From: Bacillota bacterium
GTDB lineage: Bacteria; Bacillota; UBA4882; UBA10575
DNA length: 34,510 nucleotides
Reading direction: 5' to 3'
Assembly (NCBI GenBank): GCA_012839115.1
Contig: DUNX01000049.1
Coordinates: 1 to 34,510, forward strand
Positions 3,143-33,365 of the stretch are shown one piece after another. How positions within the stretch are numbered: the stretch's first letter is position 1; every line of letters starts with the position of its first letter. The notes below the pieces were generated by a model. The model did not search any database. It was not told where the DNA came from and was given only the letters and a program-made list of their open reading frames with translations. Both the position numbers and the translations under genes were made by a program.

Positions 3143-3211
3143 GTAAACAAATTGGAGAATAAGAAATTAGCAATACAGATTTGATAAGTTAAGACCATGA
3201 GGGGGATGAGG

Positions 3212-7128: not shown

Positions 7129-7132
7129 GAAC

Positions 7133-7999
7133 ATGAAGATACTAAGACCAAGTAATCTCAGTCGTTCGGTTGGCGGGGACCTCCTCAACCTGTTTTTCCT
7201 GGTTTTGTGTGGTTTCCTGATGGCTTTGCCTTTGCTTTATACGATTTTCCAAGCATTGAAACCGCTGGACGAGATCTTTATCTTTCCACCCCGGTTTTAT
7301 GTGCGCAACCCGACACTGGATAACTTTGTGCAGCTCCTGGTAATGATGGGGGAATCGTGGGTGCCGTTTTCCCGTTATTTCTTTAACACCATCTTTGTCA
7401 CTGTTGCCGGTACCTTCGGCCATGTCATCATTGCGTCCATGGCCGCGTTCGTCCTTTCGAAGCATAAGTTTCCCGGACGAAACCTCTTCTTTAGCGTTGT
7501 CATTCTGGCTTTGATGTTTTCCTATCATGTCACCCAAATCCCCAACTATTTAATTATGGCCCGGATCAATTGGGTCGATACTTACCTGGCGCTCATCGTC
7601 CCCTACTTCTCGTATCCGCTGGGGTTGTTCCTGATGAAACAGTTTATGGAACAGATCCCCGACTCGCTGCTGGAGTCGGCCAGAATTGACGGGGCCGGCG
7701 AATTCAGGATTTTTTGGCAGATCGTAATGCCGTCGGTCAAACCAGCCTGGTTAACCCTGATTATCTTTATCTTCCAGCAACTCTGGACGATGCAAGGGGG
7801 AGTCTACATTTACAGTGAGCAACTGAAGACCCTCTCTTATGCCTTTAGCCAGATTCTCATAGGCGGGGCCATCACCATTGCCCGGGCAGGGGTAAGCGGA
7901 GCCGTAGGCTTGCTAATGATGATCCCCCCGATTGTGCTCTTTATTATTACCCAGAGCAATATTATGGAAACCATGGCCACTTCAGGTATTAAGGAGTAA
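7133..7999 (+). CDS. Carbohydrate ABC transporter permease, MalG/UgpE type
   Basis: 288 residues, six predicted membrane helices. A canonical EAA loop lies at residues 181-200 (ESARIDGAGEF... ending in VMP). The N-terminal phrase 'LPLLYTIFQALKPLDEIF' is typical of MalG-type subunits. It starts four bases after the MalF-like gene and is followed 12 bases later by the NHL-repeat gene. Its ribosome binding site is weak, so it is probably translated by coupling to the upstream gene. Role: second half of the inner-membrane channel served by the large SBP. Confidence 0.95.
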   Translation: MKILRPSNLSRSVGGDLLNLFFLVLCGFLMALPLLYTIFQALKPLDEIFIFPPRFYVRNPTLDNFVQLLVMMGESWVPFSRYFFNTIFVTVAGTFGHVIIASMAAFVLSKHKFPGRNLFFSVVILALMFSYHVTQIPNYLIMARINWVDTYLALIVPYFSYPLGLFLMKQFMEQIPDSLLESARIDGAGEFRIFWQIVMPSVKPAWLTLIIFIFQQLWTMQGGVYIYSEQLKTLSYAFSQILIGGAITIARAGVSGAVGLLMMIPPIVLFIITQSNIMETMATSGIKE

Positions 8000-8011: not shown

Positions 8012-9544
8012 GTGAACGCCAAATTAATCCATTGTTTAGTGCTGGCGCTGATTATTGCCGGTTGCTTCGCCTGCCTGCCGCCGGCAGTCCAGGCGCGGCT
8101 ACCCTACCATAGTTACACGTATGATTATTGGGGTGATGTCGTCTATTCCCCCGCCGCTTACCTGCCAAACCGTATAATTACCGGGGAAGACCTGGGGATT
8201 GGGGACTTGAGAACCCCTACGGATATTTTTATCGGTAAGGACGGTAAAATCTATATCCTTGATGCGGGGAACGGGCGGATTGTTGTCACCAATGACCGTT
8301 GGGAACTGGTCCGGGTGATCGACGGGTTTGAGAACAACGGCGTCCCCGACGGGTTTAACAACCCCAGCGGGATCTTTGTGACGGAAGAAGGCCATATTTA
8401 CGTGGCCGACACCGACAACAACCGTTTGGTGGAATTGGACCCGGCCGGGAATTTTCTCCGGGAGATCGGCCCGCCGGAATCCGATATCATCCAAGAGAGT
8501 TTTATTTATCAACCGACCAAACTGGTGGTAGACCGCGCGGGGCGGATTTATGTGGTGGCGCGTCATATGAACCAGGGTTTAATTGAACTGACACCGGACG
8601 GTCTTTTCCGCAGTTATATGGGGGCCACCCGGGTTGCCTGGAATCCGGTGGATTATTTCTGGAAAATGATCGCCACCCGGGAGCAACGGGAAAGGATGGC
8701 CCTCTTTGTCCCAACCGAATACAATAACCTCTGTATTGATGAGGAAGGTTTTATCTACGTAACCACCAGCGCTTTGAATGAGTGGGATATCCAACGGGCG
8801 ATTGGCGCCAGAAGCGAAGATGACCGTTATGCGCCGGTGCGCCGTTTGAACCTGATGGGTGATGATATTTTGCGTCGCCGGGGGTATTTCCCGCCGGTTG
8901 GGGATATCTTAATCGCCCGGAAAGGCTCGGTGCGCGGCCCGTCAATGCTGGTGGATGTGGCTGTTGATGACGAGTTCAGGATTTACAGTGTCCTGGACCG
9001 GCGCCGCGGCCGGATCTTCACGTATGACAGTGAAGGCAACCTCCTGTACATCTTCGGCGCCATCGGCGAGCGCTTCGGCAACTTCCGGAACCCGGTGGCC
9101 TTCGATTATCTTGGCGATAATATACTGGTCCTGGATTATGAGGCCGGTACGGTGACCGAGTTCGCAGTCACCGCCTATGGCCGGTTGATCCGGGAAGCGG
9201 TCCGCCTGCATTTTATCGGAAAGTATAATGAAGCGGCCGCGTGCTGGGAAGAAGTCCTGCTTCAGAACGCCAATTTTGAAATGGCCTATGTGGGAATTGG
9301 CCGTGCTCTTTTGCGGCAGGAAAAATATGAAGAGGCGCTGAAAAACTTTAAATTGGGCAACCACCGTAAATACTACTCCCGGGCCTTTTATTATCACCGG
9401 CGGGAAGTGATCGGCAGGAATTTCGGGCTGATCGTCGGGGTCCTGGTCGCCTTCGTACTTGCGCTTTATGTTATCGGTAGAGTACGGGAGAAAGGCCGGA
9501 AAAGCGCCTACGGGGAGTACCAAAGCGAGGTTGAAGAGATATGA
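8012..9544 (+). CDS. NHL-repeat protein with TPR segment and C-terminal membrane anchor
   Basis: 510 residues from a GTG start with GGGGGTAGGAG just upstream. The N-terminus is a signal sequence; it contains IAGC, a possible lipobox at Cys18, and also a signal peptidase I-like site (VQA). Residues about 60-200 and 305-390 carry NHL-type beta-propeller repeats (for example GKIYILDAGNGRIVV, GHIYVADTDNNRLVEL). Residues about 395-465 form TPR-like helices (GKYNEAAACWEEVL, EKYEEALKNF). A membrane helix at about 473-491 and a short charged tail end the protein. Propeller and TPR would therefore face outside the inner membrane. Its stop overlaps the start of the YIP1 gene (ATGA), so the two are translationally coupled. 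Function unknown; a scaffold or sugar-sensing role beside the importers is only inference. Confidence 0.88.
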   Translation: MNAKLIHCLVLALIIAGCFACLPPAVQARLPYHSYTYDYWGDVVYSPAAYLPNRIITGEDLGIGDLRTPTDIFIGKDGKIYILDAGNGRIVVTNDRWELVRVIDGFENNGVPDGFNNPSGIFVTEEGHIYVADTDNNRLVELDPAGNFLREIGPPESDIIQESFIYQPTKLVVDRAGRIYVVARHMNQGLIELTPDGLFRSYMGATRVAWNPVDYFWKMIATREQRERMALFVPTEYNNLCIDEEGFIYVTTSALNEWDIQRAIGARSEDDRYAPVRRLNLMGDDILRRRGYFPPVGDILIARKGSVRGPSMLVDVAVDDEFRIYSVLDRRRGRIFTYDSEGNLLYIFGAIGERFGNFRNPVAFDYLGDNILVLDYEAGTVTEFAVTAYGRLIREAVRLHFIGKYNEAAACWEEVLLQNANFEMAYVGIGRALLRQEKYEEALKNFKLGNHRKYYSRAFYYHRREVIGRNFGLIVGVLVAFVLALYVIGRVREKGRKSAYGEYQSEVEEI

Positions 9545-10164
9545 AATACCTGGACAGCCTGAAGTTTTCGCTTTACGCAATTTTTCACCCCTTCAAGGGT
9601 TTCTGGGACCTGAAACACGAGAAAAGAGGGAGCATCTCGGCGGCCTTGACCTTTCTTGTGCTGCTGATTGTCACCTATATTTTGCGGCGGCAATACACGG
9701 GTTTTATTTTCAACGAGAATGACCCGAAAGAGCTGAATGTTTTCATTGAGATCATCAGTGTCCTCCTGCCCTTTTTCCTCTGGACCACAGCCAATTGGGC
9801 TATAACCACTTTGATGGAAGGGGAAGGAAGCTACAGGGATATCGTGATCGCCACCGCCTATGCCTTGGTCCCGCTCATCCTTATTAACCTCCCGTTGATC
9901 CCCTTCAGCAGGATCATTAATATGGAGGAGGGGGCCTTTTATTTCTTCTTTACCTCTGTTTCCGTGCTTTGGAGCGGGGTCCTGATCCTGGCGGGGTTAT
10001 CGGTCACCCACCAATACACCATGGGGAAGTCTGTCTTTACCAGCCTCCTGTCAGTGGTGGGAATGGGTTTGATGATCTTTATTGGCTTATTGGTTTTCAG
10101 CCTGTTACAGCAGATGATTAGTTTTGTCTATACAATATACCGGGAAATTGCATTTCGACTTTAA
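9541..10164 (+). CDS. YIP1-family five-helix membrane protein
   Basis: 207 residues. Five hydrophobic segments lie at about 30-50, 68-90, 100-125, 131-154 and 165-198, the pattern of bacterial YIP1-domain proteins. A soluble N-terminus carries 'FHPFKGFWDLKHEKRGS', which resembles the family's usual opening. It overlaps the NHL-TPR gene by four bases and ends 18 bases before the DUF5696 gene. The three are therefore co-transcribed and probably act together at the inner membrane. No catalytic motif is visible. The biochemical role of bacterial YIP1 proteins beside sugar importers is not known to me. Confidence 0.85.
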   Translation: MKYLDSLKFSLYAIFHPFKGFWDLKHEKRGSISAALTFLVLLIVTYILRRQYTGFIFNENDPKELNVFIEIISVLLPFFLWTTANWAITTLMEGEGSYRDIVIATAYALVPLILINLPLIPFSRIINMEEGAFYFFFTSVSVLWSGVLILAGLSVTHQYTMGKSVFTSLLSVVGMGLMIFIGLLVFSLLQQMISFVYTIYREIAFRL

Positions 10165-10182: not shown

Positions 10183-12801
10183 ATGAAAACCCGATCTTTT
10201 ATGGTGATTGCCTTTATAATTGTCTTGGTGGCCGGCGCCGGAGGTCTTCTCTTCCGCCCTGCCACTGACATCGCTGCGGAAGAGGGTTTGCCGGCGCCTG
10301 CCGCCGGCGGAGAAACGCCCGCCGGCAATTCGCCGGTAACAGGGGGCGCGCCACCGGTTTTGGACGCCCTGGAAAAGGTGGCGGAGAATGAATTTCTCGC
10401 CCTCTATTTCTCGGAAAAAACCACCGAAGTGGCGGTACTGAAGAAAAAAACCGGTGAAATATGGTACAGCAACCCTCCCGGCCGGGCAGCGGATCCGGTG
10501 GCCGTGGGGATTAACAAAACCAAACTGGGATCGCAATTGAGCATTACTTTCTACACCCCGCACGCCCACAGAAGGACGATGGATAACGCCAGCGAGAGTA
10601 TTGAGTACGGGCAATTTGAAGCCGAGAAGCTGGCAAACGGGGTAAAAGTTACTTATACCATTGGCAAAAAAGAAGAAGTCTATATTATCCCGGAAAAAAT
10701 CACCGGCGAACGCTTTGATCAGGTTTCGGAGAAGATTAGCTCCTCGCAACAAAGGAACTTGCAACGGCGCTATATCAAAATTGACCTGAATGAAGTGGAG
10801 GACCGCAGGGAAAGGCAGAAACTCGTGAGTGAGCACCCGGCATTGCGCCGGCATGACGTGGTCTATGTCCTGCGGCCGAATTTGAGCCTCTTTGTCCTGC
10901 GTCAACTGGACGAGATTTTTGTGGAGGCCGGGTATACGCTGGAAGAAGTCAACGAAGACCACAGGGAAAACGAAGTGCCCGAGAAGGAAGTACCCAAGGA
11001 TGTTTTTACAATTCCGCTTTATTACACCTTGGACGGGGAGAACCTCATGGTGACCATACCCAGTAATGAAGTGGTCTATCATTCTTCCTACCCGTTGACT
11101 GAGATTAAAGTCCTGGAGTTCTTTGGCGCCGCCGGGCCCGGGACCGAGGGGTATGTTTTCGTTCCCGACGGGTCCGGGGCCCTAATCCATCTGAATAACG
11201 GAAAAACCCGGCACCGTGCATATTACGGCCCCGTTTACGGGCGGGATTACGCCCGGCAATACACGGAGATTTTTGAGGAACGCGAACAGGTTTATCTCCC
11301 GGTCTACGGCATGAAACAGGGTGACCAGGCCTTTTTTGCCATTATTGAAAAGGGTGACGCCCTGGCTACGATCATTGCTGATGTCGCCGGCAGGATCCAT
11401 TCTTATAATACGGTCTGCGCGGAATTCAGCTCCGTTGCCCACGGCACGATTGACCTGACCACACTGGCCGGGAATAACGTGATCAAGGTATACCAGAGGC
11501 GGATTACGCAAGGGGATTTCCAGATCCGTTATGCCTTTTTGAGCGGGGAGAAAGCGGATTATGTGGGCATGGCCGAGTATTACCGGGATTATTTGCTCAA
11601 GAAAGGCGTTTTAAAAACCGAGCGTACCGCCGGTGCAGTACCGTTCTACCTTGAAATGGTGGGCGGAATTGACAAGATCAAACCGTTCCTCGGGGTTCCG
11701 GCCCGCCGGATTGAGGCGTTGACCACTTTCAGCGAAGCCAGAGAGGTGGTTGACAGCCTGCTGGCGTCGGATGTTACCAACCTTAAGCTGCGTTATACCG
11801 GGTGGTTTAACGGCGGGCTCCGCCAAGGTTTGCCGAGTAGTATTAATATTTTAAATGAACTCGGCGGACGGGCCGGCTTCACCCGGCTGGCCAGATATTT
11901 AGAAGCGAACAATGTGGAATTCTACCCATCCGTTACCTTTGAATACGCCAAAAAAGCCGGGATCTTGAGGGGCTTTAACACGCGGACCGCCGCCTCCCGT
12001 TTTATCAACCAGGATGTCGGTGTCTTGTATGATATCAACTTCGCAACCTATCAGGAAGACAAGGAAAAACGGGCGCAATACATGGTCTGTCCTTCCCGGA
12101 TCGGGCGGTATGTAGACCGTTTTTTGCGCCGGTACCGGTCTTTGGATGTTAAAGGTCTTTCTTTGACCACCATGGGACAGGATTTGAACGCCAATTACCG
12201 GGAGAAACGGCTGGTCGACCGGGCCCAGGCCCAGCAGTATATCGGGGGAGAACTGGCGAAGATGACCGGTTCCGGATACCGGTTGCTGGCCGAAGGGGTT
12301 AACGTCTACGCCCTGGCCCATACAGCGCATATCCTCAATATGCCGCTGGATTCCAACCACTACCTGATTACCGACGAAGGTATCCCCTTCTACCAGATCG
12401 TCACCTGCGGGCATGTTGATTATGCCGGGGAACCGGTTAATCTCGCCGGTGATCCGCGGCGGGCGTTTTTGAAAACCATCGAAACCGGTGGCGGTCTTTA
12501 TTTCACCTGGATTTACCGGGATAACTCCCTGATTAAAGAGACCGATTACGACTACCTGTATTCGGTAGAATATAAAAAGTGGTTCGATCAGGCGGTGGCA
12601 TTTTACCGCGAAGCCCAGGAAGTACTGGGGGATATACGGGGGCAACGCATTATTGACCACCGGCGGTTGGCCGATAATGTCTATAAAGTAACCTTTGAAA
12701 AGGGGAAAACCATCATGGTTAACTACAACCGGGAACCGGTTACTGTGGAAGGAATAAGACTGGCGGCTGAAAGTTATCATGTGTTACGGGAGGGCAGGTG
12801 A
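10183..12801 (+). CDS. DUF5696 protein, probable exported glycosidase-like enzyme
   Basis: 872 residues with a signal sequence or N-terminal anchor (about 7-24) followed by a Pro/Ala/Gly-rich linker to about residue 55. The beta-rich N-terminal half (about 60-400, with 'FFGAAGPGTEGYVFVPDGSGALIH') and an alpha/beta C-terminal half (about 480-800) match my memory of DUF5696 proteins, which are found beside sugar ABC transporters in Paenibacillus-like genomes and look like glycoside hydrolases of TIM-barrel type. Acidic residues suited to catalysis occur (e.g. near FEYAKKAG and TDEGIPFYQIV), but I cannot assign catalytic ones. The start ATG has AAGGAAGGGG upstream. It ends in TGA at 12799, just before the next permease. 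Substrate unknown; a polysaccharide or its oligosaccharides is inference from context. Confidence 0.85.
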   Translation: MKTRSFMVIAFIIVLVAGAGGLLFRPATDIAAEEGLPAPAAGGETPAGNSPVTGGAPPVLDALEKVAENEFLALYFSEKTTEVAVLKKKTGEIWYSNPPGRAADPVAVGINKTKLGSQLSITFYTPHAHRRTMDNASESIEYGQFEAEKLANGVKVTYTIGKKEEVYIIPEKITGERFDQVSEKISSSQQRNLQRRYIKIDLNEVEDRRERQKLVSEHPALRRHDVVYVLRPNLSLFVLRQLDEIFVEAGYTLEEVNEDHRENEVPEKEVPKDVFTIPLYYTLDGENLMVTIPSNEVVYHSSYPLTEIKVLEFFGAAGPGTEGYVFVPDGSGALIHLNNGKTRHRAYYGPVYGRDYARQYTEIFEEREQVYLPVYGMKQGDQAFFAIIEKGDALATIIADVAGRIHSYNTVCAEFSSVAHGTIDLTTLAGNNVIKVYQRRITQGDFQIRYAFLSGEKADYVGMAEYYRDYLLKKGVLKTERTAGAVPFYLEMVGGIDKIKPFLGVPARRIEALTTFSEAREVVDSLLASDVTNLKLRYTGWFNGGLRQGLPSSINILNELGGRAGFTRLARYLEANNVEFYPSVTFEYAKKAGILRGFNTRTAASRFINQDVGVLYDINFATYQEDKEKRAQYMVCPSRIGRYVDRFLRRYRSLDVKGLSLTTMGQDLNANYREKRLVDRAQAQQYIGGELAKMTGSGYRLLAEGVNVYALAHTAHILNMPLDSNHYLITDEGIPFYQIVTCGHVDYAGEPVNLAGDPRRAFLKTIETGGGLYFTWIYRDNSLIKETDYDYLYSVEYKKWFDQAVAFYREAQEVLGDIRGQRIIDHRRLADNVYKVTFEKGKTIMVNYNREPVTVEGIRLAAESYHVLREGR

Positions 12802-12806
12802 GACCG

Positions 12807-13793
12807 ATGAAATTTAATTTCCAAGATTTCCTGCTAAAGGTGAAGAAGGGGCTTGGCGACCTAAAACTGAAGCTGAACTTCGGCGGCAAAGAAACAACAA
12901 CGCATATAGCCATGGAAAAGAGGAGAGCGATTGCGGGTTATGTTTTTATCTCCCCGTTTTTACTCGGGCTGATCTTCTTTTTCCTCTACCCGTTTCTGCA
13001 ATCAGTAATCTTTAGTTTTAACAGCATCCAAATTGGTACCCAGGGCTACGAAATGACCGGGGTCGGGTTTGGCAATTACCACCGGGCCTTTATGGTGCAC
13101 CCGACTTTCCGCCGGGTTTTGGTGGAATCGATCATCCAAATGATCACCGACGTACCGCTCATCATCATCTTTAGCTTTTTTGCAGCCAATTTGATTAACC
13201 AGAAATTCCGGGGGCGGGCGGTGGCAAGGGCCATCTTCTTCCTCCCCGTCATCCTGACTTCCGGAATTATCCTGGCGGTTGAGAATAACGATTTGCTTCT
13301 GGGGATTATGTCCGGCGCTATCCAGCCGGATACCGCGGCCGGCGCGGTCCGCGCTTTGGAACTACGTACCCTGTTGCTCGAGACCAGGCTGCACCCGCGG
13401 TTTGTCGGGTATATTATCGATGCGGTCGACCGTTTATATGAGATCGTTAAGGCTTCAGGGGTCCAGATTTTAATCTTCCTCGCCGGTTTACAGACCATCT
13501 CCCCGTCCCTCTATGAAGCCTCGACCATGGAGGGGGCAACCGGGTGGGAGAACTTCTGGAAGATCACATTCCCGATGATTAGCCCTTTGATCTTGGTGAA
13601 CACAGTCTACACCGTAATTTACTCGTTCACCAACCCCAACAACCCGGTAATGGAGATCATCAAGAACACGGCTTTTGCCGAGTCAAGGTTTGGCTTCAGT
13701 TCCGCCATTGCCTGGGTGTATTTCCTGGTTATTTTAGGGATCCTGGGCATCCTGATTGGGGTCATCTCCAGGTGGGTCTTTTATCATGACTAG
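12807..13793 (+). CDS. Second sugar ABC permease, MalF/LacF type
   Basis: 328 residues, six predicted membrane helices, EAA loop at residues 237-256 (EASTMEGATGWENF...). I chose the ATG at 12807, which has AGGTGAG four bases upstream and begins just after the DUF5696 stop. The GTG at 12798 overlaps that stop and is too close to its purine run. Compared with usual MalF-like proteins it has an extra amphipathic stretch between the helices (about residues 165-215), rich in Arg/Leu/Glu. Together with the next gene it forms a second importer. Six SBPs lie downstream and probably feed it. Confidence 0.94.
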   Translation: MKFNFQDFLLKVKKGLGDLKLKLNFGGKETTTHIAMEKRRAIAGYVFISPFLLGLIFFFLYPFLQSVIFSFNSIQIGTQGYEMTGVGFGNYHRAFMVHPTFRRVLVESIIQMITDVPLIIIFSFFAANLINQKFRGRAVARAIFFLPVILTSGIILAVENNDLLLGIMSGAIQPDTAAGAVRALELRTLLLETRLHPRFVGYIIDAVDRLYEIVKASGVQILIFLAGLQTISPSLYEASTMEGATGWENFWKITFPMISPLILVNTVYTVIYSFTNPNNPVMEIIKNTAFAESRFGFSSAIAWVYFLVILGILGILIGVISRWVFYHD

Positions 13794-13859
13794 ACGGCGG
13801 AGAAAAAATTTTGTGCGGGCATGCGTGATTATTCATGGAAGAGTTAAAGAGGTGAGAAG

Positions 13860-14858
13860 ATGAAGGCCTTATCCTTAGAAAAAGCAGGACAGGCGATTGA
13901 GACCAAAGAACAGCGGGCAAACTGGCGGCATTCCGTTTTTTTCCAGGCCAAAAAGTTTTTATGGGTGACTGTACGCACCATTTTAGTGGCAGGGATCTGT
14001 TTTTTGATCCTCTACCCCCTTGCCGCCAAGCTATCCGTCTCCGTCATGGCCGAGCGTGACCTCTATGATATTACCGTTTGCTATGTTCCCAAACATTTCA
14101 CTTGGGAAAACTACCAGGTTGTCTGGAAACACATGGGTTTTCCCGGGACCTTTTTCAACTCGCTTTGGCTGTCGTTGCTCACCGGTGTTCTCCAGATTAT
14201 CTCTTGTACGCTGGTGGGTTACGGGTTTGCCAGGTTTAACTTTCCCTTTAAGAAATTGCTCTTTGGGATGGTCCTCGTGATGCTGGTCGTTCCACCGCAG
14301 ACGATCATGGTCCCGATGTTTTTACGTTTCCGCTTTTTTGATATTTTTGGGGTTATAAAACTGATCAGCGGAAATACAATTAACCTGATCGATACGTTTT
14401 GGCCGTTCGTTCTGACCTCGCTTACCGGCACCGGCCTCCGGAACGGGCTGTATATTTATATGATGCGGCAGTTTTTCCGGGGGGCGCCCAAGGAGCTTGA
14501 AGAATCGGCTTATGTGGACGGGGCCGGCCCTTATAAAACTTTTTACTATATCATGTTACCCATTGCCATCCCGATGATGGTTACGATCTTTTTATTCTCC
14601 TTTGTTTGGCAGTGGACTGATACCTTTTACACCACCCTTTTCTTGGAAAGGATGGCGACCCTGCCGACAGTCCTTTCCTCTTTAGCCGTATCCATTAATT
14701 ATCAAGAATTTGGCCCGATGGCGACGATGAGCCCGGCGTATGCTTCCATGCTTAACAACACCGGCAGTGTTCTGGTAATCCTGCCGTTGATCATTATCTA
14801 CCTCATCGCCCAGCGGTACTTCGTGGAGAGTATCGAAAGGTCGGGGATTATCGGTTAA
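13860..14858 (+). CDS. Second carbohydrate ABC permease, MalG type
   Basis: 332 residues, six predicted membrane helices, canonical EAA loop at residues 215-234 (ESAYVDGAGPYKTF... ending in MLP). A cytoplasmic N-terminus of about 35 residues is longer than usual. GAGGTGAGA just upstream supports the ATG. It follows its partner permease by 66 bases and is followed after 155 bases by the first of six SBP genes. It completes the second importer of the locus, again without an ATPase gene. Confidence 0.95.
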   Translation: MKALSLEKAGQAIETKEQRANWRHSVFFQAKKFLWVTVRTILVAGICFLILYPLAAKLSVSVMAERDLYDITVCYVPKHFTWENYQVVWKHMGFPGTFFNSLWLSLLTGVLQIISCTLVGYGFARFNFPFKKLLFGMVLVMLVVPPQTIMVPMFLRFRFFDIFGVIKLISGNTINLIDTFWPFVLTSLTGTGLRNGLYIYMMRQFFRGAPKELEESAYVDGAGPYKTFYYIMLPIAIPMMVTIFLFSFVWQWTDTFYTTLFLERMATLPTVLSSLAVSINYQEFGPMATMSPAYASMLNNTGSVLVILPLIIIYLIAQRYFVESIERSGIIG

Positions 14859-15013: not shown

Positions 15014-16342
15014 ATGCAAAAAAGGAGCAAAGTTTTCCTGATCATCACCGGTGGTTTGCTTCTGCTGGCACTGGTGGCCTGCGCAGTCACAGTCGGCGGT
15101 AAGGAAAAGTACAATTTTGGCGGGCGGACGATTACTTACTCTGCCTGGTGGGAATTGCGCCCGGACCCCGGGGCTTCCGTGGAGATGGAGCGGCAAGCCC
15201 GGCGGGTAGCTGAGGTGGAAAAGAAATATAATGTAAAGATCAATTATGTCAATATCCCCTGGGGGGAGTACCTGGCCAGATATATTACAACGGTGATGGC
15301 CGGCGACAGCATGGGTGATATTGTCAATGTCGAGGCCAACTGGTTCTACCCAACGCTGCTGTTGAATAATTTCTGTACAAACCTGAGCGAATTAGGGGTA
15401 TTTGATTTCACCGCTGAGAAATTCCAGCGGGAAACGGTGGAATTTGGTACATACCGCGGCGGTGTCTATGCGTACGATGTGGGCCGGCTCTATCCCCGGG
15501 GAGTTCTTTATTGGAATAAGAGCATGTTTGCCCGGGAAGGCCTGCCCGATCTATATGAACTTTTCTTCAACTATAAGTGGACCTGGGAGAAAATGCTTGA
15601 ATTTGCAAAAGCGTTGACTAAAGATATTGACGGCGACGGTATTATTGACCAGTGGGGGATCGGCGGCGCCGCCCAACGGCTGGAACGGGCTTTTGTCATT
15701 TCCAACAACGCCCATTATATTGATGTCTCCGATAAGGATAACCCCAAATTTGCCCTGACCCACCCCAATGCCATCGAGGCACTCCAGGCGCACCAGGATT
15801 TCATCCTCAAGCACCAGGTAGTATCGATGACACCGGAGGGGGCGCCTTGGGATTACAATGTTCAGAGCTTTATTGAGGGTAAGCTCGGGATGCTGGTCGG
15901 GCAAATATGGAAGATCGACCAGATAAAAGAGGACATGAAAGACGAATACGGGATCGTTTTATTCCCGATGGGCCCGAAGGCCAAAGAGTACGCCTCCGAA
16001 TTGACCGGCCATTTGGTGAGGACTATGCCGATAACAGTGAAGAACCCCAAAGAAGTGGCGATTGTGGAGGATGCCATCACCGAACCGCACCCGGACGAAG
16101 ACCCCGACGATTGGCGGGAATACTACGAATTGCGGGTGACCGACGAGGAGTCGATCGCAACGGTAGAGTTGCTCTGGGATAAACAGCTCAGCGTCTTTAA
16201 TCTCCAGTGGGCTTTCGGAATCGACGATGTTTTCTATACCATCGAGCATGAGGTAATGACCGGGAATAAAGCGCCCACTGCGGCCGTGGAAGAGTATGCG
16301 CAGGAAGCCCAGATGCGGATTAATGACTCGTTGCGGTTTTAA
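15014..16342 (+). CDS. Extracellular solute-binding protein, array copy 1 (lipoprotein)
   Basis: 442 residues. The signal peptide ends in LVAC, a good lipobox with Cys22-23 as the lipid-modified residue; it is the only copy in the array with one. The mature protein is a family 1 sugar SBP. A DIDGDGIID loop at residue 204 resembles the calcium-binding loop of alginate and related SBPs, and the C-terminus has the array-wide signature EAQMRINDSL. AGGAGG at 14997-15002 lies 11 bases before the ATG; an ATG at 15004 is too close to it. It belongs to sequence group A with copies 2 and 3 (WWELRPDPG near the N-terminus, acidic stretch HPDEDPDDWREYYE near the C-terminus). It likely serves the permease pair just upstream. 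Confidence 0.95.
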   Translation: MQKRSKVFLIITGGLLLLALVACAVTVGGKEKYNFGGRTITYSAWWELRPDPGASVEMERQARRVAEVEKKYNVKINYVNIPWGEYLARYITTVMAGDSMGDIVNVEANWFYPTLLLNNFCTNLSELGVFDFTAEKFQRETVEFGTYRGGVYAYDVGRLYPRGVLYWNKSMFAREGLPDLYELFFNYKWTWEKMLEFAKALTKDIDGDGIIDQWGIGGAAQRLERAFVISNNAHYIDVSDKDNPKFALTHPNAIEALQAHQDFILKHQVVSMTPEGAPWDYNVQSFIEGKLGMLVGQIWKIDQIKEDMKDEYGIVLFPMGPKAKEYASELTGHLVRTMPITVKNPKEVAIVEDAITEPHPDEDPDDWREYYELRVTDEESIATVELLWDKQLSVFNLQWAFGIDDVFYTIEHEVMTGNKAPTAAVEEYAQEAQMRINDSLRF

Positions 16343-16359
16343 TTCAAGTTCGTAGAAGG

Positions 16360-16401
16360 TTCGCCCAGTTTCCCCCGGTTTTCAGGGGGAAACTGGGCGA
16401 A
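16360..16401. other. Very strong hairpin between SBP copies 1 and 2
   Basis: A 17-bp perfect stem (TTCGCCCAGTTTCCCCC with its complement) and an 8-base loop. No T-run follows on the plus strand, and the next gene starts within about 12-21 bases, so it is not a classical terminator. It resembles the mRNA-stabilising or partial-termination hairpins found after binding-protein genes, as between malE and malF. Confidence 0.8.
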
Positions 16402-16412
16402 AATGAAAGGGG

Positions 16413-17753
16413 ATGGTCGTCATTACGAAACAGCGAAAATCCTTCATTACCTGCCTGGGATTGACGGCGGCTCTGTTGGTCCTGGCCCTGGCCGGCGCAG
16501 TTGCCGGCAGCAAGGAGAAATATGATTTTGGCGGCCGGACGGTTACATATTCCGCCTGGTGGGAATTGCGCCCGCAGCCCGGTGCTTCGGTAGAGATGGA
16601 CCGGCAGATCCGGCGGGTGACCGAGGTGGAAAAGAAATACAACGTAAAGATTGATTACGCAAATATCCCCTGGGGGGAATACCTGGCCCGGTATATCACG
16701 ACGGTGATGGCCGGGGACAGCATGGCCGACATCGCCTGTGTTGAAGTCAACTGGTTTTACCCCACACTGCTGTTGAATAATTTCTGCCTTCCCATCTCCT
16801 CACTGGGTGTCTTTGATTTTAATGACGAAAAATTCCAACGCGAAACCGTCACCTTTGGTGAGTACAACGGAGAAATTTATTGCTACGAAATCGGTAATGT
16901 ATACCCCCGGGGTGTGGTCTTTTTCAACAAGACCATGTTTGCGCGGGAAGGCATCACCGACATGTACGACGTCTTCTTTAACTATGAGTGGACCTGGGAT
17001 AAGATGCTGGAATACGCCAAAAAATTGACCAGGGATACCGACGGCGACGGTATTATTGACCAGTGGGGCCTCGGCGGCGGGACCGGCCGGGTTTGGCGGG
17101 GCTTTATCATCTCCAACGGCGCCAATTTTATTGATATTTCCGACAAAAGCAAGCCCCGTTTTGCCTTGGGCGACCCCAACGCCATCGCGGCTCTCCAGGC
17201 CTACCAGGATTTCACCCTCAAACACCAGGTAATCCTGGTTCCGCCGGAGGGCGCGCCGTGGGATTATGCAATCGAGGCTTTTATCGAAGGAAAAGTAGGG
17301 ATGCTTGTCGGGCAGATCTACAAGCTCCACAGCTTGAAAACAAAAATGCAAGATGAATACGGCGCAGTTTTATTCCCGATGGGCACCAGCATGAAGGAGT
17401 ATACATCGGAGCTTACCGGTCATTTTGTAAAAGTGATGCCAATCACCATAAAAAACCCCAAAGAAGTGGCGATAGTGGAAGATGCCATGACCGAACCGCA
17501 TCCGGATGAAGACCCCGACGACTGGCGGGAGTATTACGAGATGCGGATGACCGATGAAGAGTCCATCGAGACGGTGAAGATGATCTGGGATAAACAACTC
17601 AGTGTCTTTAATCTCCAATCGGCCTTTGATGTCATGGATATCTTCTATACCTTGGAATGGGAACTCCAGACCGGCGCCAAAACCCCGCAGGCGGCGGTGG
17701 AAGAGTATGCCCAGGAAGCGCAGATGCGGATTAATGATTCGCTAATCTTCTAA
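16413..17753 (+). CDS. Extracellular solute-binding protein, array copy 2 (mosaic)
   Basis: 446 residues from the ATG at 16413, but AAAGGGG abuts that codon directly. An ATT at 16422 would have a normal nine-base spacing and gives an N-terminus that aligns better with copies 1 and 4, so the true start may be non-standard. The signal peptide has no lipobox and probably ends near AGA/VAG. Calcium-loop-like DTDGDGIID begins at residue 208. The ends of the protein match group A (copies 1 and 3). The middle, from about 16919 to 17210 (REGITD, TGRVWRGFIISNG, LQAYQDF), matches copy 4 of group B, suggesting gene conversion. It probably delivers a related ligand to the same permeases as copy 1. Confidence 0.94.
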   Translation: MVVITKQRKSFITCLGLTAALLVLALAGAVAGSKEKYDFGGRTVTYSAWWELRPQPGASVEMDRQIRRVTEVEKKYNVKIDYANIPWGEYLARYITTVMAGDSMADIACVEVNWFYPTLLLNNFCLPISSLGVFDFNDEKFQRETVTFGEYNGEIYCYEIGNVYPRGVVFFNKTMFAREGITDMYDVFFNYEWTWDKMLEYAKKLTRDTDGDGIIDQWGLGGGTGRVWRGFIISNGANFIDISDKSKPRFALGDPNAIAALQAYQDFTLKHQVILVPPEGAPWDYAIEAFIEGKVGMLVGQIYKLHSLKTKMQDEYGAVLFPMGTSMKEYTSELTGHFVKVMPITIKNPKEVAIVEDAMTEPHPDEDPDDWREYYEMRMTDEESIETVKMIWDKQLSVFNLQSAFDVMDIFYTLEWELQTGAKTPQAAVEEYAQEAQMRINDSLIF

Positions 17754-17870
17754 TAACATGCAAAGCAGGATTGCGGGTTCGCCGGGCTATGGGGTTCTTT
17801 TTTCAGCTGGCTAAAAGCATGACTACGGCAAGATAGAATAATATAAAAAAAGGGGGGGTCAGTAAGGGAA

Positions 17871-19196
17871 ATGAAAAATTGGTTTCGTGTAATTGTTATT
17901 GGCGGATTGGTTCTGCTCATATTGGCGGTTACCATTACGGCCGGGGGAAAAGAGGAGAAACATAATTTTGGCGGGCGGACAATTACTTACTCCGCCTGGT
18001 GGGATTTGCGCCCGGATCCCGGGGTTTCCCTGGAGATGGAGCGGAAGGCCCGGCGGGCTGCTGAGGTGGAAAAGAAATATAACGTAAAGATCGATTACGT
18101 CAATATCCCCTGGGGGGAATACCTGGGCAGGTACATCACGACCGTCATGGCCGGCGACCGCATAGCGGATATCGCCATTGTGGAGGCTGAATGGTTTTAT
18201 CCCACGCTTTTGATGAACAATTTCTGTACAAACTTGAGCGATTTAGGGGTATTTGATTTTACCACTGAAAAATTTGAACCGGTTACGGTAAATCTCGGCA
18301 CTTACCGCGGAAAGGTCTACGCTTATGAAACCGGCCGGCTCTACCCCCGGGGCGTCCTTTTCTGGAACAAGAGTATGTTCGCCCGGGAAGGCCTGCCCGA
18401 TTTATATGAGACATTCTTTAACTATGGGTGGACCTGGGACAAAATGCTCGAATTTGCAAAAGCATTGACAAAAGACACCGACGGAGACGGTGTAATTGAC
18501 CAGTGGGGGATTGGTGGTACCGCCCAAAGGCTGGAACGGGGTTTTGTCATCTCCAACAACGCTCATTATATAGATATCTCCGATTTTGACAATCCAAAAT
18601 TCGGCCTGACCCACGCCAATGCCATCGATGCGCTCCAGGCGCACCAGGACTTTATCCTCAAGCACCAGGTGGTATTGATGCCGCCGGAGGGGGCGCCTTG
18701 GGATTACAACGTTCATAGCTTTATCGAAGGCAAACTCGGGATGCTGGTCGGGCAGTTTTGGAAGATCAACGACTATATGAAAGGGAACATGCAGGACGAA
18801 TACGGGATCGTTTTATTCCCGATGGGACCGAAAGCGAAGGAGTATACCTCTGAATTGACGGGACACAATTTCAAGACTATGCCGGTATCGGTGAAGAACC
18901 CCAAAGAAGTGGCGATTGTGGAGGATGCCATGACCGAACCGTTCCCGGATGAAGGCCCCGACGACTGGCGGGACTACTACGAATTAATGGTCACCGACGA
19001 AGAGTCGATCAAGACTGTCGAGATGATCTGGGAGAAACAGCTGGGTGTCGTTAATCTCCAATGGGCATTCGGGATCAACGATATCTTCTACACCCTCGAG
19101 TGGGAGGTAATGACCGGGAATAAAACGCCCACGGCCGCTGTGGAAGAGTTTGCACAGGAAGCCCAGATGCGGATTAATGACGCCTTGTCATTCTAA
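17871..19196 (+). CDS. Extracellular solute-binding protein, array copy 3
   Basis: 441 residues. The signal sequence lacks a cysteine; cleavage is possible near ITA. Group A sequence: WWDLRPDPG near the N-terminus, DTDGDGVID loop at residue 202, acidic PFPDEGPDDWRDYYE near the C-terminus, and the EAQMRINDAL signature. It is closest to copy 1 by eye (AQRLERGFVISNNAHYID against AQRLERAFVISNNAHYID). The gap from copy 2 is 117 bases with only weak secondary structure and a run of seven G at 17852-17858. AAGGG lies close before the ATG. Confidence 0.94.
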   Translation: MKNWFRVIVIGGLVLLILAVTITAGGKEEKHNFGGRTITYSAWWDLRPDPGVSLEMERKARRAAEVEKKYNVKIDYVNIPWGEYLGRYITTVMAGDRIADIAIVEAEWFYPTLLMNNFCTNLSDLGVFDFTTEKFEPVTVNLGTYRGKVYAYETGRLYPRGVLFWNKSMFAREGLPDLYETFFNYGWTWDKMLEFAKALTKDTDGDGVIDQWGIGGTAQRLERGFVISNNAHYIDISDFDNPKFGLTHANAIDALQAHQDFILKHQVVLMPPEGAPWDYNVHSFIEGKLGMLVGQFWKINDYMKGNMQDEYGIVLFPMGPKAKEYTSELTGHNFKTMPVSVKNPKEVAIVEDAMTEPFPDEGPDDWRDYYELMVTDEESIKTVEMIWEKQLGVVNLQWAFGINDIFYTLEWEVMTGNKTPTAAVEEFAQEAQMRINDALSF

Positions 19197-19252
19197 GTTT
19201 CCATATGTTCGCCCTTAAAAAATATATATAAAATAAATGAGGAGGGATTGCT

Positions 19253-20599
19253 ATGCAAAGAAAACGGAAGCTCTTTTTACTCACCCTGATTGTGCTGATC
19301 TTTATTATGCTGGTGGCCGCCGTTGTGGCCAGCGGGAAAGCGAAGAAGTACAATTTTGGCGGCCGGACAATTACTTGGGCAACCTGGTGGGAAGAGGCTA
19401 AACCGGTGGCTGGGAGGTCGGAACGGGAGGATCTGCGGCTAAAGCGGGAGGTTGAGGTCGGGAAGAAGTACAATGTGAAATTTGATTATCTAACTGTTCC
19501 CTGGGGAGAGTTTATGGCCAAATATATAACCACCGTGATGGCAGGGGATGCCATGGCCGAGATCGTCAGTGTCCAGACCGACTGGTTCTACCCGACGCTG
19601 CTCTTGAATAATTTCTGTATGAACCTGAGTGAGCTGGGTGTCTTTGACTTTAAGGCCCCCAAATTCCAGAAAGAAACCATAGACTTTGCCACCCTGGACG
19701 GATCGGTCTACGGGTACGAGATTGGAAGGATCGAGCCCAGAGGGGTAATCTTCTTTAACAAGACCATGTTCGAGCGGGAAGGGATCACCGACATCTACGA
19801 TACGGTTTTCAACTACAAATGGACCTGGAATAAAATGCTGGAAGTCGCCAAAAAACTGACCAGGGATACCGATGGCGACGGGGTCATCGACCAGTGGGGA
19901 CTCGCCGGCGCGACCGGCCGGGTCTGGCGGGGCTTTATTATCTCCAATGGTGGTAATTTCATCGATATTTCCGATAAGTGGCACCCCCGGTTCAGCCTGG
20001 GCGACCCGGCTGCTCTTGAAGCCCTCCAGGCCTATCAGGACTTTATCTTAAAAGAAAGAGTTATCATGATCTCACCGGAAGGTTCGCCATGGGACTATCC
20101 GGTCCAGGCTTTCCTCGACGGGAAAGTGGGCATGCTTGTCGCGCAGATGTGGAATATTGATAAAATGCGTGACAACATGAGCGACGAGTACGGGGTCATC
20201 CTGTTCCCCATGGGACCGCGGATGAAAGAATACACCTCCGAAGCCACTCTGCACCACTTCAAGGTCTTCCCGGTCACGGTCAAGAACCCGAAAGAAGTGG
20301 CGATTGTGGAAAACGAGATGACCGAGCCCTACAAAGTCGGCGGCGAGTTGCTGTTTATGGAAGAAAAGAACGAAGAATGGCTGGAAATGCGGGTGACCGA
20401 CGATGAGTCGATCCAGATCGTCCAGATGATCTGGGATAAACAGAACAGCATCTTCAATCTGCAGGAAGCCTTTGGGGTCATGGATATCTTCTACACAATC
20501 GACGACGAACTCCAGAAAGGGAACAGCACGCCGCAAGCGGCGGTAGAAGAGTACGCCCAAGAAGCCCAAATGCGGATTAACGATTCCTTGATGCTTTAA
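19253..20599 (+). CDS. Extracellular solute-binding protein, array copy 4
   Basis: 448 residues, no lipobox cysteine, cleavage possible near VVA. First copy of group B: WWEEAKPVAG then RSEREDLRL near the N-terminus, GRIEPRGVIFFNK, DTDGDGVID loop at residue 205, and YKVGGELLFMEEKNEEWLE in place of the acidic stretch of group A. The GAGGAGGG site six to seven bases before the ATG is the best in the array. The gap from copy 3 is only 56 AT-rich bases. A 284-base structured gap follows. Its middle third is shared with the mosaic copy 2. Confidence 0.95.
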   Translation: MQRKRKLFLLTLIVLIFIMLVAAVVASGKAKKYNFGGRTITWATWWEEAKPVAGRSEREDLRLKREVEVGKKYNVKFDYLTVPWGEFMAKYITTVMAGDAMAEIVSVQTDWFYPTLLLNNFCMNLSELGVFDFKAPKFQKETIDFATLDGSVYGYEIGRIEPRGVIFFNKTMFEREGITDIYDTVFNYKWTWNKMLEVAKKLTRDTDGDGVIDQWGLAGATGRVWRGFIISNGGNFIDISDKWHPRFSLGDPAALEALQAYQDFILKERVIMISPEGSPWDYPVQAFLDGKVGMLVAQMWNIDKMRDNMSDEYGVILFPMGPRMKEYTSEATLHHFKVFPVTVKNPKEVAIVENEMTEPYKVGGELLFMEEKNEEWLEMRVTDDESIQIVQMIWDKQNSIFNLQEAFGVMDIFYTIDDELQKGNSTPQAAVEEYAQEAQMRINDSLML

Positions 20600-20669
20600 T
20601 CGCCGGTTACATGCAGCGATCGATCTCGCAACCTGTTTTGTAACCCTGGTAATCTGTTTCCTTTGTGAT

Positions 20670-20703
20670 GGCCGGAAGAGCGGAGCTAGACGCTCTTCCG
20701 GCC
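20670..20703. other. 13-bp perfect hairpin, gap 4/5
   Basis: GGCCGGAAGAGCG and its exact complement around an 8-base loop. No T-run follows, so it is more likely a stabilising or processing element than a full terminator. The counterpart at 22297-22332 has a different stem sequence but the same geometry. Confidence 0.8.
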
Positions 20704-20707
20704 CTTA

Positions 20708-20777
20708 GGCGCCGGGTTTGCCCTGACTTTGCTCGTCCACGCCGTCTTTCGCGTGACGCATTCGCAAGCCCGGCGCC
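20708..20777. other. Long-range hairpin 2, gap 4/5
   Basis: The 14-base arms at 20708-20721 and 20764-20777 pair with one G-U wobble and enclose about 42 bases. The counterpart in the next gap (22340-22349 with 22398-22407) pairs perfectly over 10 bp, with the wobble replaced by an A-T pair. Confidence 0.65.
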
Positions 20778-20883
20778 GGTATTTTCCAGACCGTTCCCGG
20801 AGAAGGATCCGTTTCCACTATGCCGGTCATTGCCTGCAGAGGGCCGGCTTATGGGAAGGCAGAGAGAAAAAGGGGGGTTACAC

Positions 20884-22224
20884 TTGAAGAAAAACAAGTT
20901 GTTCCTGGTGATTTTAGCGGGATTAATCTTTGTTATCCTGGCGGTTGCCGTGGCCGCCGGCGGGAAAGAGAAGAAACATGATTTTGGCGGCCGGACCATT
21001 ACTTATGCGACCTGGTGGGAATATAAACCGCAGGCAGGCCGGTCGGAACGGGAGGATCTGCGGCTGCAGAGGGAAGCGGAGGTCGGGAAGAAGTATAATG
21101 TAAAAATTGATTACCTGAATGTTCCCTGGGGAGAGTTTATGGCCAAATATATCACCACCGTGATGGCAGGGGATGCCATGGCCGACATCGTCAGTGTCCA
21201 GGTTTGTTGGTTCTATCCGACACTACTGATGAATAATTGCTGTCTCTCCCTATCCTCTTTGGGCGTTTTTGATTTTGACGCGCCCAAGTTCCAAAGGGAG
21301 AGTATAGAATTTGCCACCCTGGACGGGGAGGTCTACGGCTACGAGACTGGGAGGATCGAGCCCAGAGGGGTGATCTTCTTTAATAAATCCATGTTTGAAC
21401 GGGAAGGACTCCCCAATTTGTATGAGATTTTCTTCAATTACAAGTGGACCTGGGATAAGATGCTCGAGTTTGCCAAGAAAGTAACGAAAGATACCGACGG
21501 CGACGGGATTGTTGACCAATGGGGGATTGGCGGCGCTACCGGCCGGCTTTGGGGCGGTTTCGTTTTCTCCAATGATGCCCATTTTGTCGATATCTCCGAT
21601 AAGTGGAATCCCCGGTTCAGTATGGGCGATCCTAATACCCTTGAAGCCCTCCAAGCTTTTCAGGATTTTGCCATAAAACACGAGGTTATGCTGGTTAAAC
21701 CGGAAGGCGCCCCATATGACTACCCGGTTCAGGCCTTCCTCGACGGGAAATTGGGGATGCTTTGCGCTCAAGTTTGGAACCTTGACAAGATGCGGGACAA
21801 CATGAACGATGAGTACGGGATAGTTTTATTCCCCATGGGACCACAGATGAAGGAATATACAGCGGAGGCTACCGGCCACCACATCCGGACCTTCCCGGTG
21901 ACCGTCAAGAACCCGGAACAGGTGGCCATCGTGGAAGATGCCTTGACCGAACCTTATGAGCTCGACGGAGAACTGGCGATTATAGAGGAGAAAAATGAAG
22001 AATGGTTGGAAATGCGGGTAACCGACGAAGAATCAATCCGGGTGGTCCAGATGATCTGGGACAAACAGTTGAGTGTCTTTAATTTGCAGGAAGCCTTTGG
22101 GATCATGGATATCTTCTATACCCTCGAGTGGGAGTTGGAACACGGGATCAAAACGCCACGGGCGGCGGTGGAAGAAGTTTCCCAGGAAGCCCAGATGCGG
22201 ATTAGTGATTTCTTGTTGCTTTAG
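20884..22224 (+). CDS. Extracellular solute-binding protein, array copy 5
   Basis: 446 residues from a TTG at 20884. This start is set by the site AAAGGGGGG just upstream and by near-identity of the following bases with copy 6, which starts at the matching TTG. The open frame reaches back to 20665 but that part is the structured gap. The signal sequence MKKNKLFLVILAGLIFVILA has no lipobox. Group B features: DTDGDGIVD loop at residue 203 and YELDGELAIIEEKNEEWLE. It has more cysteines than its relatives (VCW, NNCC, MLC). It ends in EAQMRISDFLLL, a slight change of the array signature. It arose with copy 6 by a tandem duplication that includes the gap. Confidence 0.94.
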   Translation: MKKNKLFLVILAGLIFVILAVAVAAGGKEKKHDFGGRTITYATWWEYKPQAGRSEREDLRLQREAEVGKKYNVKIDYLNVPWGEFMAKYITTVMAGDAMADIVSVQVCWFYPTLLMNNCCLSLSSLGVFDFDAPKFQRESIEFATLDGEVYGYETGRIEPRGVIFFNKSMFEREGLPNLYEIFFNYKWTWDKMLEFAKKVTKDTDGDGIVDQWGIGGATGRLWGGFVFSNDAHFVDISDKWNPRFSMGDPNTLEALQAFQDFAIKHEVMLVKPEGAPYDYPVQAFLDGKLGMLCAQVWNLDKMRDNMNDEYGIVLFPMGPQMKEYTAEATGHHIRTFPVTVKNPEQVAIVEDALTEPYELDGELAIIEEKNEEWLEMRVTDEESIRVVQMIWDKQLSVFNLQEAFGIMDIFYTLEWELEHGIKTPRAAVEEVSQEAQMRISDFLLL

Positions 22225-22518
22225 TCGCCGGTTACACCGTGTGGTCCCGGTAACCATCTCGTTAACCTGGTATCTCTGGTTTTTTGTCCCATTTAGCAGC
22301 AGGGAAAGCGGGGCAACGCGCTTTCCCTGCTGTCAAGTGCCGGGTTTGCCTTGTCTTTCCTCGTTCGCGCCATCTTTTTAGCGTGACGAAATTCCCAGCA
22401 AACCCGGGGCGGTATTTTCCGGACCGTTCCCGGAGAAGGAGCCATTTTCATGATACCGGTTATTACCTGCAGAGGACCGGAATAGGGGAAGGCACAGGAA
22501 AAAGGGGGAGGTTAAATT
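22225..22518 (+). repeat. Structured gap between SBP copies 5 and 6 (repeat unit 2)
   Basis: 294 bases, the second copy of the unit at 20600-20883. It keeps both hairpins (22297-22332 and 22340-22407), the GACCGTTCCCGGAGAAGGAGCC block and the final GGGGGAGG site of copy 6. Conservation of pairing despite changed stem bases suggests the RNA structure matters. Confidence 0.75.
22297..22332. other. 14-bp perfect hairpin, gap 5/6
   Basis: CAGCAGGGAAAGCG pairs with CGCTTTCCCTGCTG around an 8-base loop (22311-22318). Same loop length as the hairpins at 16360 and 20670. No T-run follows. Confidence 0.8.
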
Positions 22519-23862
22519 TTGAAGAAAAACAAGTTGTTCCTGGTGATTTTGGCAGGATTAATCTTTGTGATCCTGGCCGTTGCCATGGTGGCCGGCGGGA
22601 AAGAGAAGAAACATGATTTTGGCGGCCGGACCATTACTTATGCGACCTGGTGGGAATATAAACCGCAGGCAGGCCGGTCGGAACGGGAGGACCTGCGGCT
22701 GCAGAGGGAAGCGGAGGTCGGGAAGAAGTATAATGTAAAAATTGATTACCTGACTGTTCCCTGGGGCGAGTTTACGGCCAAATATATCACCACCGTAATG
22801 GCGGGGGATGCCATGGCCGACATTGCCAGCGTGCAGATTGACTGGTTCTATCCGACGCTGCTCCTGAATAATTTCTGTCTCAACCTTTCCTCGCTGAATG
22901 TCTTTGATTTCAGTGCCCCCAAGTTCCAAAGGGAGACCGTGGACTTTGCCGTCCTGGATGGAGATGTTTATGGCTACGAGATCGGGAGGATCGAGCCCAG
23001 GGGGGTAATTTTCTTTAATAAGACCTTGTTTGAGCGGGAAGGGCTGCCCAACCTGTATGAGGTCTTTTTCAATTATGAGTGGACCTGGGATAAGATGCTC
23101 GAGTTTGCCCAGAAAATAACGAAAGATACCGACGGCGACGGGATCATTGACCAATGGGGGATTGGCGGCGCTACCGGCAAGGTTTGGTGCGGTTTGCTCC
23201 TCTCCAATGACGCCCATTTTATTGATATCTCCGATAAAAGGAACCCCCGGTTCAGCATGGGCGACCCCAATGCCATTGAAGCCCTCCAGTTCTTCCAGGA
23301 TTTGGCCGTAAAATACAAGGTTATGCTGGTTAAACCGGACGGCGCCCCGTATGACTACCCGGTCCAGGCCTTCCTCGACGGGAAAATGGGGATGCTTTGC
23401 GCCCAGTTTTGGAATATCGATAAGATGCGGGACAACATGAACGATGAGTACGGGATAATCCTCTTCCCAATGGGGCCAAAGATGAAGGAGTATACGGCGG
23501 AGGCTTCCGGCCATCACCTCAAGACCTTCCCGGTAACCGTCAAGAACCCGGAACAGGTGGCCATGGTGGAAGATGCTTTGACCGAACCCTATAAAATCGG
23601 CGGCGAACTGCTGCTTATGGAAGAAAAGAACGAAGAATGGCTGGAAATGCGGGTGACCGACGAGGAGTCGATCCAGATGGCCCAGATGATCTGGGATAAA
23701 CAGCTGAGCGTCTTTAACTTCCAGGCCGCCTTCGGGATCATGGATATCTTCTACACCATCGAGTGGGAGTTGGAGCACGGGCACAATACACCCCGGGCGT
23801 CGGTGGAAGAGTATTCCCAGGAAGCCCAGATGCGGATTAATGACTATCTGTCCCCGTTATAA
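22519..23862 (+). CDS. Extracellular solute-binding protein, array copy 6
   Basis: 447 residues from a TTG start with GGGGGAGG seven bases upstream. The first roughly 75 codons are almost identical in DNA to copy 5, while later parts differ more (NNFCLNLSSLNVFDF, TGKVWCGLLLSND). No lipobox. DTDGDGIID loop at residue 203; YKIGGELLLMEEKNEEWLE; C-terminus EAQMRINDYLSPL. It is the last gene of the array, and a 420-base gap with no obvious terminator follows. It most likely binds a ligand related to that of copy 5 and passes it to the second permease pair. Confidence 0.95.
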   Translation: MKKNKLFLVILAGLIFVILAVAMVAGGKEKKHDFGGRTITYATWWEYKPQAGRSEREDLRLQREAEVGKKYNVKIDYLTVPWGEFTAKYITTVMAGDAMADIASVQIDWFYPTLLLNNFCLNLSSLNVFDFSAPKFQRETVDFAVLDGDVYGYEIGRIEPRGVIFFNKTLFEREGLPNLYEVFFNYEWTWDKMLEFAQKITKDTDGDGIIDQWGIGGATGKVWCGLLLSNDAHFIDISDKRNPRFSMGDPNAIEALQFFQDLAVKYKVMLVKPDGAPYDYPVQAFLDGKMGMLCAQFWNIDKMRDNMNDEYGIILFPMGPKMKEYTAEASGHHLKTFPVTVKNPEQVAMVEDALTEPYKIGGELLLMEEKNEEWLEMRVTDEESIQMAQMIWDKQLSVFNFQAAFGIMDIFYTIEWELEHGHNTPRASVEEYSQEAQMRINDYLSPL

Positions 23863-25146: not shown

Positions 25147-25162
25147 AAAGGGGGGGAGAGGG

Positions 25163-31321: not shown

Positions 31322-31655
31322 TTCATCCAGCTCCCTCACAGAATAGATTCGTTCCAACACAGGCCAGCTTAAAAGTGGTCGGATATGTGGATAAAAGAAA
31401 AAAAATAAAAAAATTCCAGCCATAATTATTATCATTCTTAAATTATTATTCTTCCAGGCGTCAATTTTTCCTGCTGGGCGAAGGAAATATTCTGGAGAGA
31501 ATTCATTGTTTTCCCGGCTTTCCTGGCCGGGGCGTCCAGTGTTCCGGAGGTTTCCCCGGCGCCAAAGAGGAAGTCTTCATCAACTGAGAAGAGCAGCAGG
31601 AATCAGCGGGCCGGTATAGAAAATAAATATTTACCGGAAAGGAGTATGTTAGCTT
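31322..31655. other. Divergent promoter region between secretin and GspE genes
   Basis: 334 bases with no gene on either strand. The part next to the secretin is AT-rich (31380-31460, A-runs) and probably holds its promoter. The GspE gene has GGAAAGGAG at 31636-31644. I could not pick clear -35/-10 pairs. Confidence 0.5.
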
Positions 31656-33353: not shown

Positions 33354-33365
33354 GAAGGTGATTTT

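Follow-up and report, generated by a model that had tools for sequence, protein, structure and literature searches.

Multi-receptor sugar importers are already known. The HMO cluster of Bifidobacterium infantis contains six closely related family 1 solute-binding proteins (SBPs) with differing specificities on glycan arrays (PMC3057974). The alginate system has two receptors, AlgQ1 and AlgQ2, which share with Smon0123 an EF-hand-like loop whose acidic ligands are spaced 0-2-4-8; in Smon0123 and AlgQ2, this calcium loop lies far from the ligand and may contact the transporter (PMC5717064). In Paenibacillus sp. FPU-7, NagB1 and NagB2, SBPs that were assigned by prediction to a sugar transporter, have both been characterised and are reported to bind chitin di- and trisaccharides (PMC8233162). 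Shared ATPases that serve importers are likewise known, MsmX being an example (PMC7658222).

Here we describe six SBP genes, S1 to S6, in a Bacillota genome; "the window" is the whole stretch of 34,510 nucleotides that was analysed. As in the B. infantis cluster, six related family 1 SBPs are found in one transporter cluster. That cluster comprises several ABC transporters and glycosyl hydrolases, whereas here the six stand in a row after one permease pair, in a member of the Bacillota and in a DUF5696 locus. They also differ from NagB1/NagB2, of which there are two copies. The host lineage occurs in anaerobic digesters. In the literature searched, we found no paper naming DUF5696, and searches on multi-SBP importers returned mostly unrelated papers.

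Six SBP genes at the end of a DUF5696 operon

All genes of the operon lie on the plus strand. The same-strand run opens with an AraC-family regulator with a cupin sensor domain (2008..2967; Pfam HTH_18, HTH_AraC and Cupin_2), followed by SBP980 (3197..6139), a 980-aa protein with a C-terminal SBP_bac_1 domain whose N-terminal ~550 residues (window 3197-4850) had no Pfam match. SBP980 precedes permease pair 1 in related loci and is its probable partner; both permeases of this pair (6163..7128 and 7133..7999) match BPD_transp_1. Next come an NHL-repeat/TPR protein (8012..9544) and a Yip1-domain membrane protein (9541..10164), both recognised by profile matches, the DUF5696 protein (10183..12801; PF18952, E 5e-209), and the second permease pair, consisting of the UgpA/MalF-like permA (12798..13793) and the UgpE/MalG-like permB (13860..14858). 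The run ends with S1-S6, directly after permA/permB. The original prediction had placed the receptors behind one permease pair; the array does follow permA/permB, but the operon has two pairs, at 6163-7999 and 12798-14858. The NHL/TPR and Yip1 genes, separate at window 8012-10164, form a single ~716-aa fusion in other families (L106:6050-8200 and L126:6576-8723), which suggests that the two proteins work jointly. Downstream of the array, at 24283-28017, are genes for an ABC-2 permease, a GldG-like protein and a DUF4340 protein, with no adjoining ATPase gene. Rfam at gathering thresholds found no known RNA across the window.

The six genes are complete, as predicted, and occupy 15014-23862 with products of 441-448 aa. 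S1 (15014..16342, 442 aa), the sole copy with a lipobox-like LVAC, is followed by S2 (16413..17753, 446 aa), S3 (17871..19196, 441 aa), S4 (19253..20599, 448 aa), S5 (20884..22224, 446 aa) and S6 (22519..23862, 447 aa), the last two read from TTG. The TTG of S5 at 20884 is preceded by a GGGGGG ribosome site, and the mechanically called S5 frame (20665-22224) extends too far at its upstream end. Every copy scores above the Pfam SBP_bac_1 cut-off (48-68 bits against 26) and also above that of SBP_bac_8, and the array is genetically linked to two BPD_transp_1 permeases, permA and permB directly upstream, in accordance with SBP_bac_1/CUT1-type importers. Any two copies in the window are 58-84% identical. 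Identities and a codon tree recover the two proposed groups as clades, S1-S3 and S4-S6, and the group-specific segment described near the C-terminus is real, lying near residue 360. Of the signatures said to be common to all copies, the DxDGDG columns are the same in 6/6, as is EAQMRI at the C-terminus, but the N of the latter signature is replaced by S in S5. Taken together, these resemblances go far beyond chance.

Strong hairpins occur in three of the spacers on the plus strand: a 17-bp hairpin between S1 and S2 (16360..16401; -36.6 kcal/mol, z -6.2), two hairpins between S4 and S5 (20670..20776; z -5.8), and a homologous pair between S5 and S6 (22296..22408; z -5.9), with z scores from folding each spacer against shuffled sequences. 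The first hairpin of the S4-S5 spacer has a 13-bp stem that is conserved across copies and species: it recurs in the S5-S6 spacer and in related genomes, and four of its base pairs show compensatory changes. Because no T-run follows them, we rejected these structures as intrinsic terminators, and they are more likely to be stabilising or processing elements.

Predicted fold and a calcium-type loop

AlphaFold models of S1 and S5 (pLDDT 86.5 and 88), together with Foldseek matches for both, give a two-lobed fold like that of maltose-binding protein (MBP); for the S1 model, VIA-align covered residues 36-442 with Z 27-31. The best PDB match, both by sequence (E 5e-24) and by Foldseek (S1, S5), is AbnE (6RJY), an arabino-oligosaccharide SBP of Geobacillus stearothermophilus. 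AbnE, which was solved with arabino-oligosaccharides, has the calcium-type loop DTNGDGKLDQWG in common with S1-S6, but is only ~20% identical to them. Fold and sequence point to S1-S6 as predicted oligosaccharide receptors.

Four aspartates, D204, D206, D208 and D212, are invariant in S1-S6, and their 0-2-4-8 spacing is that of an EF-hand-like calcium loop, making this a predicted calcium site. The DxDGDG motif matches the EF-hand-like loop of related SBPs and is therefore ruled out as a ligand or specificity signature. We also considered membership in the 7th cluster of EF-hand-like calcium SBPs (AlgQ1/2, Smon0123, FusA) and rejected it: the loop spacing agrees, but S1-S6 are ~50 kDa before signal cleavage against ~57 kDa. 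AlgQ1/AlgQ2 and Smon0123 are larger (Smon0123, 57 kDa) and are not among the significant PDB profile matches.

A stand-alone ATPase and a probable diderm host

The operon contains no ATPase gene. A stand-alone UgpC/MsmX-type ATPase, found by family search, is encoded on another contig of the genome (L144:2224-3345; it scores 492.8 bits with NF008653, whose cut-off is 432), and the permA/permB importer is probably energised by it. Three Omp85 matches elsewhere in the genome and a secretin gene make the host cell probably a diderm member of the Bacillota; the secretin lies on the minus strand within window 28967-34508, where T2SSE and T2SSF genes lie on the plus strand. S2-S6 lack a lipobox cysteine, whereas Paenibacillaceae orthologues had one in 15/15 checked. 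Because that cysteine is missing in a probably diderm cell, S2-S6 would be soluble periplasmic receptors.

Receptor duplication recurs in DUF5696 loci

The DUF5696 importer locus is widespread, recurring across many Bacillota families. The window operon matches its order of SBP980, permease pair, NHL, Yip1, DUF5696, permA and permB, one end of which carries a ~440-aa SBP. Loci of the Paenibacillaceae and other Bacillota (L031-L072, L104-L142) are alike in gene order and parts, but usually have one ~440-aa SBP. In the Paenibacillaceae, the gene order is identical, and the single SBP (~30% identity) lies upstream of SBP980. Our survey of other Bacillota genomes covered 39 DUF5696 stretches, each at most 20 kb long, in which some SBP sets may be incomplete. 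Two units recur in them, SBP980-permease-permease and permA-permB with a ~440-aa SBP. Most of the stretches have a single ~440-aa SBP, and the maximum seen was three paralogues.

Paralogous SBP sets were present in at least five of the 39 stretches, from three families, and receptor duplication in the DUF5696 locus is therefore recurrent. These are two SBPs of 58% identity (L126), two of 80% (L123), two of 74%, one on each side of the locus (L107), three of 57-71% (L136), and two tandem SBPs of 75-78%, one of them frameshifted (L128:1466-2705). Among the DUF5696 loci compared, six is the largest number of ~440-aa SBPs. The premise that one importer normally has one SBP thus fits this locus elsewhere, but sets of two or three are found in other families, and clusters of six SBPs have precedents such as that of B. 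infantis.

Glycoside hydrolases of families GH26, GH43, GH42, GH35, GH31 and GH3 adjoin related loci, pointing to plant polysaccharides as what those loci serve. No glycoside hydrolase adjoins the window locus. GH26 is absent from the host genome, and on that ground we rejected mannan as a substrate carried over from the related loci.

The copies predate the species and recombine

The array occurs in 3/3 genomes of the genus, with 6 copies, 5 (one frameshifted) and ~4, and none was seen in the other family members examined. Full-length orthologues are 87-96% identical between species, against 58-84% between window paralogues, and the dN/dS check that had been proposed gave 0.086-0.194 for orthologues. 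The paralogues are therefore older than the species split, and each copy is under purifying selection. S5 is the best conserved between species (94-96%), nearly frozen while S6 is 84% identical to it. The two other genomes, G001 and G002, are drafts, in which copy number, both fusions described below and the frameshift could reflect assembly artefacts. The G001 copies, one of them S1-like and the others S4, S5 and S6, are spread over two contigs, and S4 is interrupted by a gap. Of the five copies in G002, only the first is frameshifted, by one base around the DGDG codons.

Several copies are mosaics. The first G001 copy is S1-like until ~codon 307 and S3-like after (max chi-square 101, 0/2000 permutations), and the first G002 copy is S1-like until ~codon 150-170 and S2-like after (max chi-square 57, 0/2000 permutations). 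Such S1/S3 and S1/S2 fusions would be the expected product of deletion by unequal crossing-over between neighbours, and the lower copy numbers in G001 and G002 fit fusions made in this way. Conversion between S5 and S6 was also detected (max chi-square 39-86, 0/2000 permutations each). In codons 30-104, dS between these paralogues within a species is 0.09, 0.25 and 0.22, against 0.30-0.53 between orthologues; from codon 105 to the end the relation is reversed, with 0.61-0.76 for paralogues against 0.13-0.39 for orthologues. The reversal at ~codon 104 is present in all three species, and segment trees agree. The first ~100 codons of S5/S6 are repeatedly homogenised, while the remainder is kept distinct. 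Wrong joins of paralogues in draft assemblies threaten the two fusions more than this S5/S6 pattern, which is common to three genomes.

One might go further and see the array as a recombining receptor library, in which unequal crossing-over and conversion at preferred points (~codon 104, ~150-170 near the first lobe crossing, and ~308) would join parts of different receptors and yield new in-frame combinations of half-pockets, always with an unchanged permease pair. A tendency to multiply receptors in this way would then be general to DUF5696 loci. We consider this speculative and distinctly unlikely.

Ligand diversification and its alternatives

Paralogue-specific residues do occur in predicted cleft loops. 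Residues 108-109 are fixed per paralogue across species (AN, VN, AE, TD, VC, ID), as is residue 399 (W, S, W, E, E, A), and position 225 is E in S1/S3 and W in the other copies. An hhalign alignment with an approximate MBP sequence paired N109 with MBP D65, but its fit at ~213-226 and 399 is doubtful, and we took it as no more than a lead. Paralogue variation was not significantly enriched in the cleft loops (Fisher p 0.11-1.0), which were set crudely from the model's secondary structure, without coordinates or ligands. The original prediction was right about a paralogous expansion beside a permease pair. The ligand diversification that it proposed is suggested by a few paralogue-fixed cleft residues, but not by the enrichment result. 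Judged from sequence and model, different copies likely have different ligands.

In our preferred reading, which we consider probable, S1-S6 are diversified receptors that all belong to a single ABC importer for oligosaccharides, of the CUT1 type, composed of permA/permB and a UgpC/MsmX-type ATPase, in a DUF5696 locus. All six would act as extracytoplasmic receptors that dock on the same permease pair. Repeated tandem duplication in the genus would have produced four to six receptors, and purifying selection would keep the copies distinct, so that a range of related oligosaccharides, which are probably fragments of plant polysaccharides, could be delivered to one permease pair. Unequal crossing-over would account for the fusions and the fewer copies, and gene conversion for the homogenised start of S5/S6.

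The absence of significant cleft-loop enrichment would suit an array that mainly raises the amount of periplasmic receptor, with all copies binding the same oligosaccharide and their differences reflecting drift under selection for the fold. A copy number that varies from six to ~four between species and the homogenised N-terminal parts of S5/S6 agree with this account. It sits poorly, however, with paralogue-specific residues fixed in three species, including 108-109 and 399, with an S5 that is almost frozen while S6 is 84% like it, and with the distinctness of S5 and S6 past codon 105 despite repeated conversion nearby. The evidence disfavours simple dosage: the copies predate three species, purifying selection acts on each, and conversion has left S5 and S6 distinct over most of their length. 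We regard it as unlikely. Against our preferred reading, no glycoside hydrolase adjoins the window locus, one G002 copy is frameshifted, and purifying selection would be expected as well if the copies had one ligand in common and were expressed differently. Amount or timing might then be set by the hairpins in the spacers and by possible internal promoters, and the strong hairpins without T-runs at S1-S2, S4-S5 and S5-S6, with compensatory changes in the latter two, lend themselves to such a role. All genes nevertheless lie in one run on one strand, and hairpins alone need no receptor divergence, which leaves partition by expression quite improbable.

With two permease pairs in the operon, the receptors might instead serve both of them, or other permeases of the cell, and not permA/permB alone. 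There is little chance of this, as SBP980 travels with pair 1, the two having even moved together in L132 and L139, and outside the Paenibacillaceae the ~440-aa SBP usually adjoins pair 2.

A real, well-kept and recombining array of six receptors sits in an apparently unstudied locus. If the six bind different oligosaccharides, the array would be a compact natural experiment on how many receptors can serve one permease pair, and three related genomes offer orthologues, fusions and conversion tracts for comparison. The array also draws attention to a conserved importer locus of the Bacillota, with its DUF5696, NHL and Yip1 proteins and two permease pairs.
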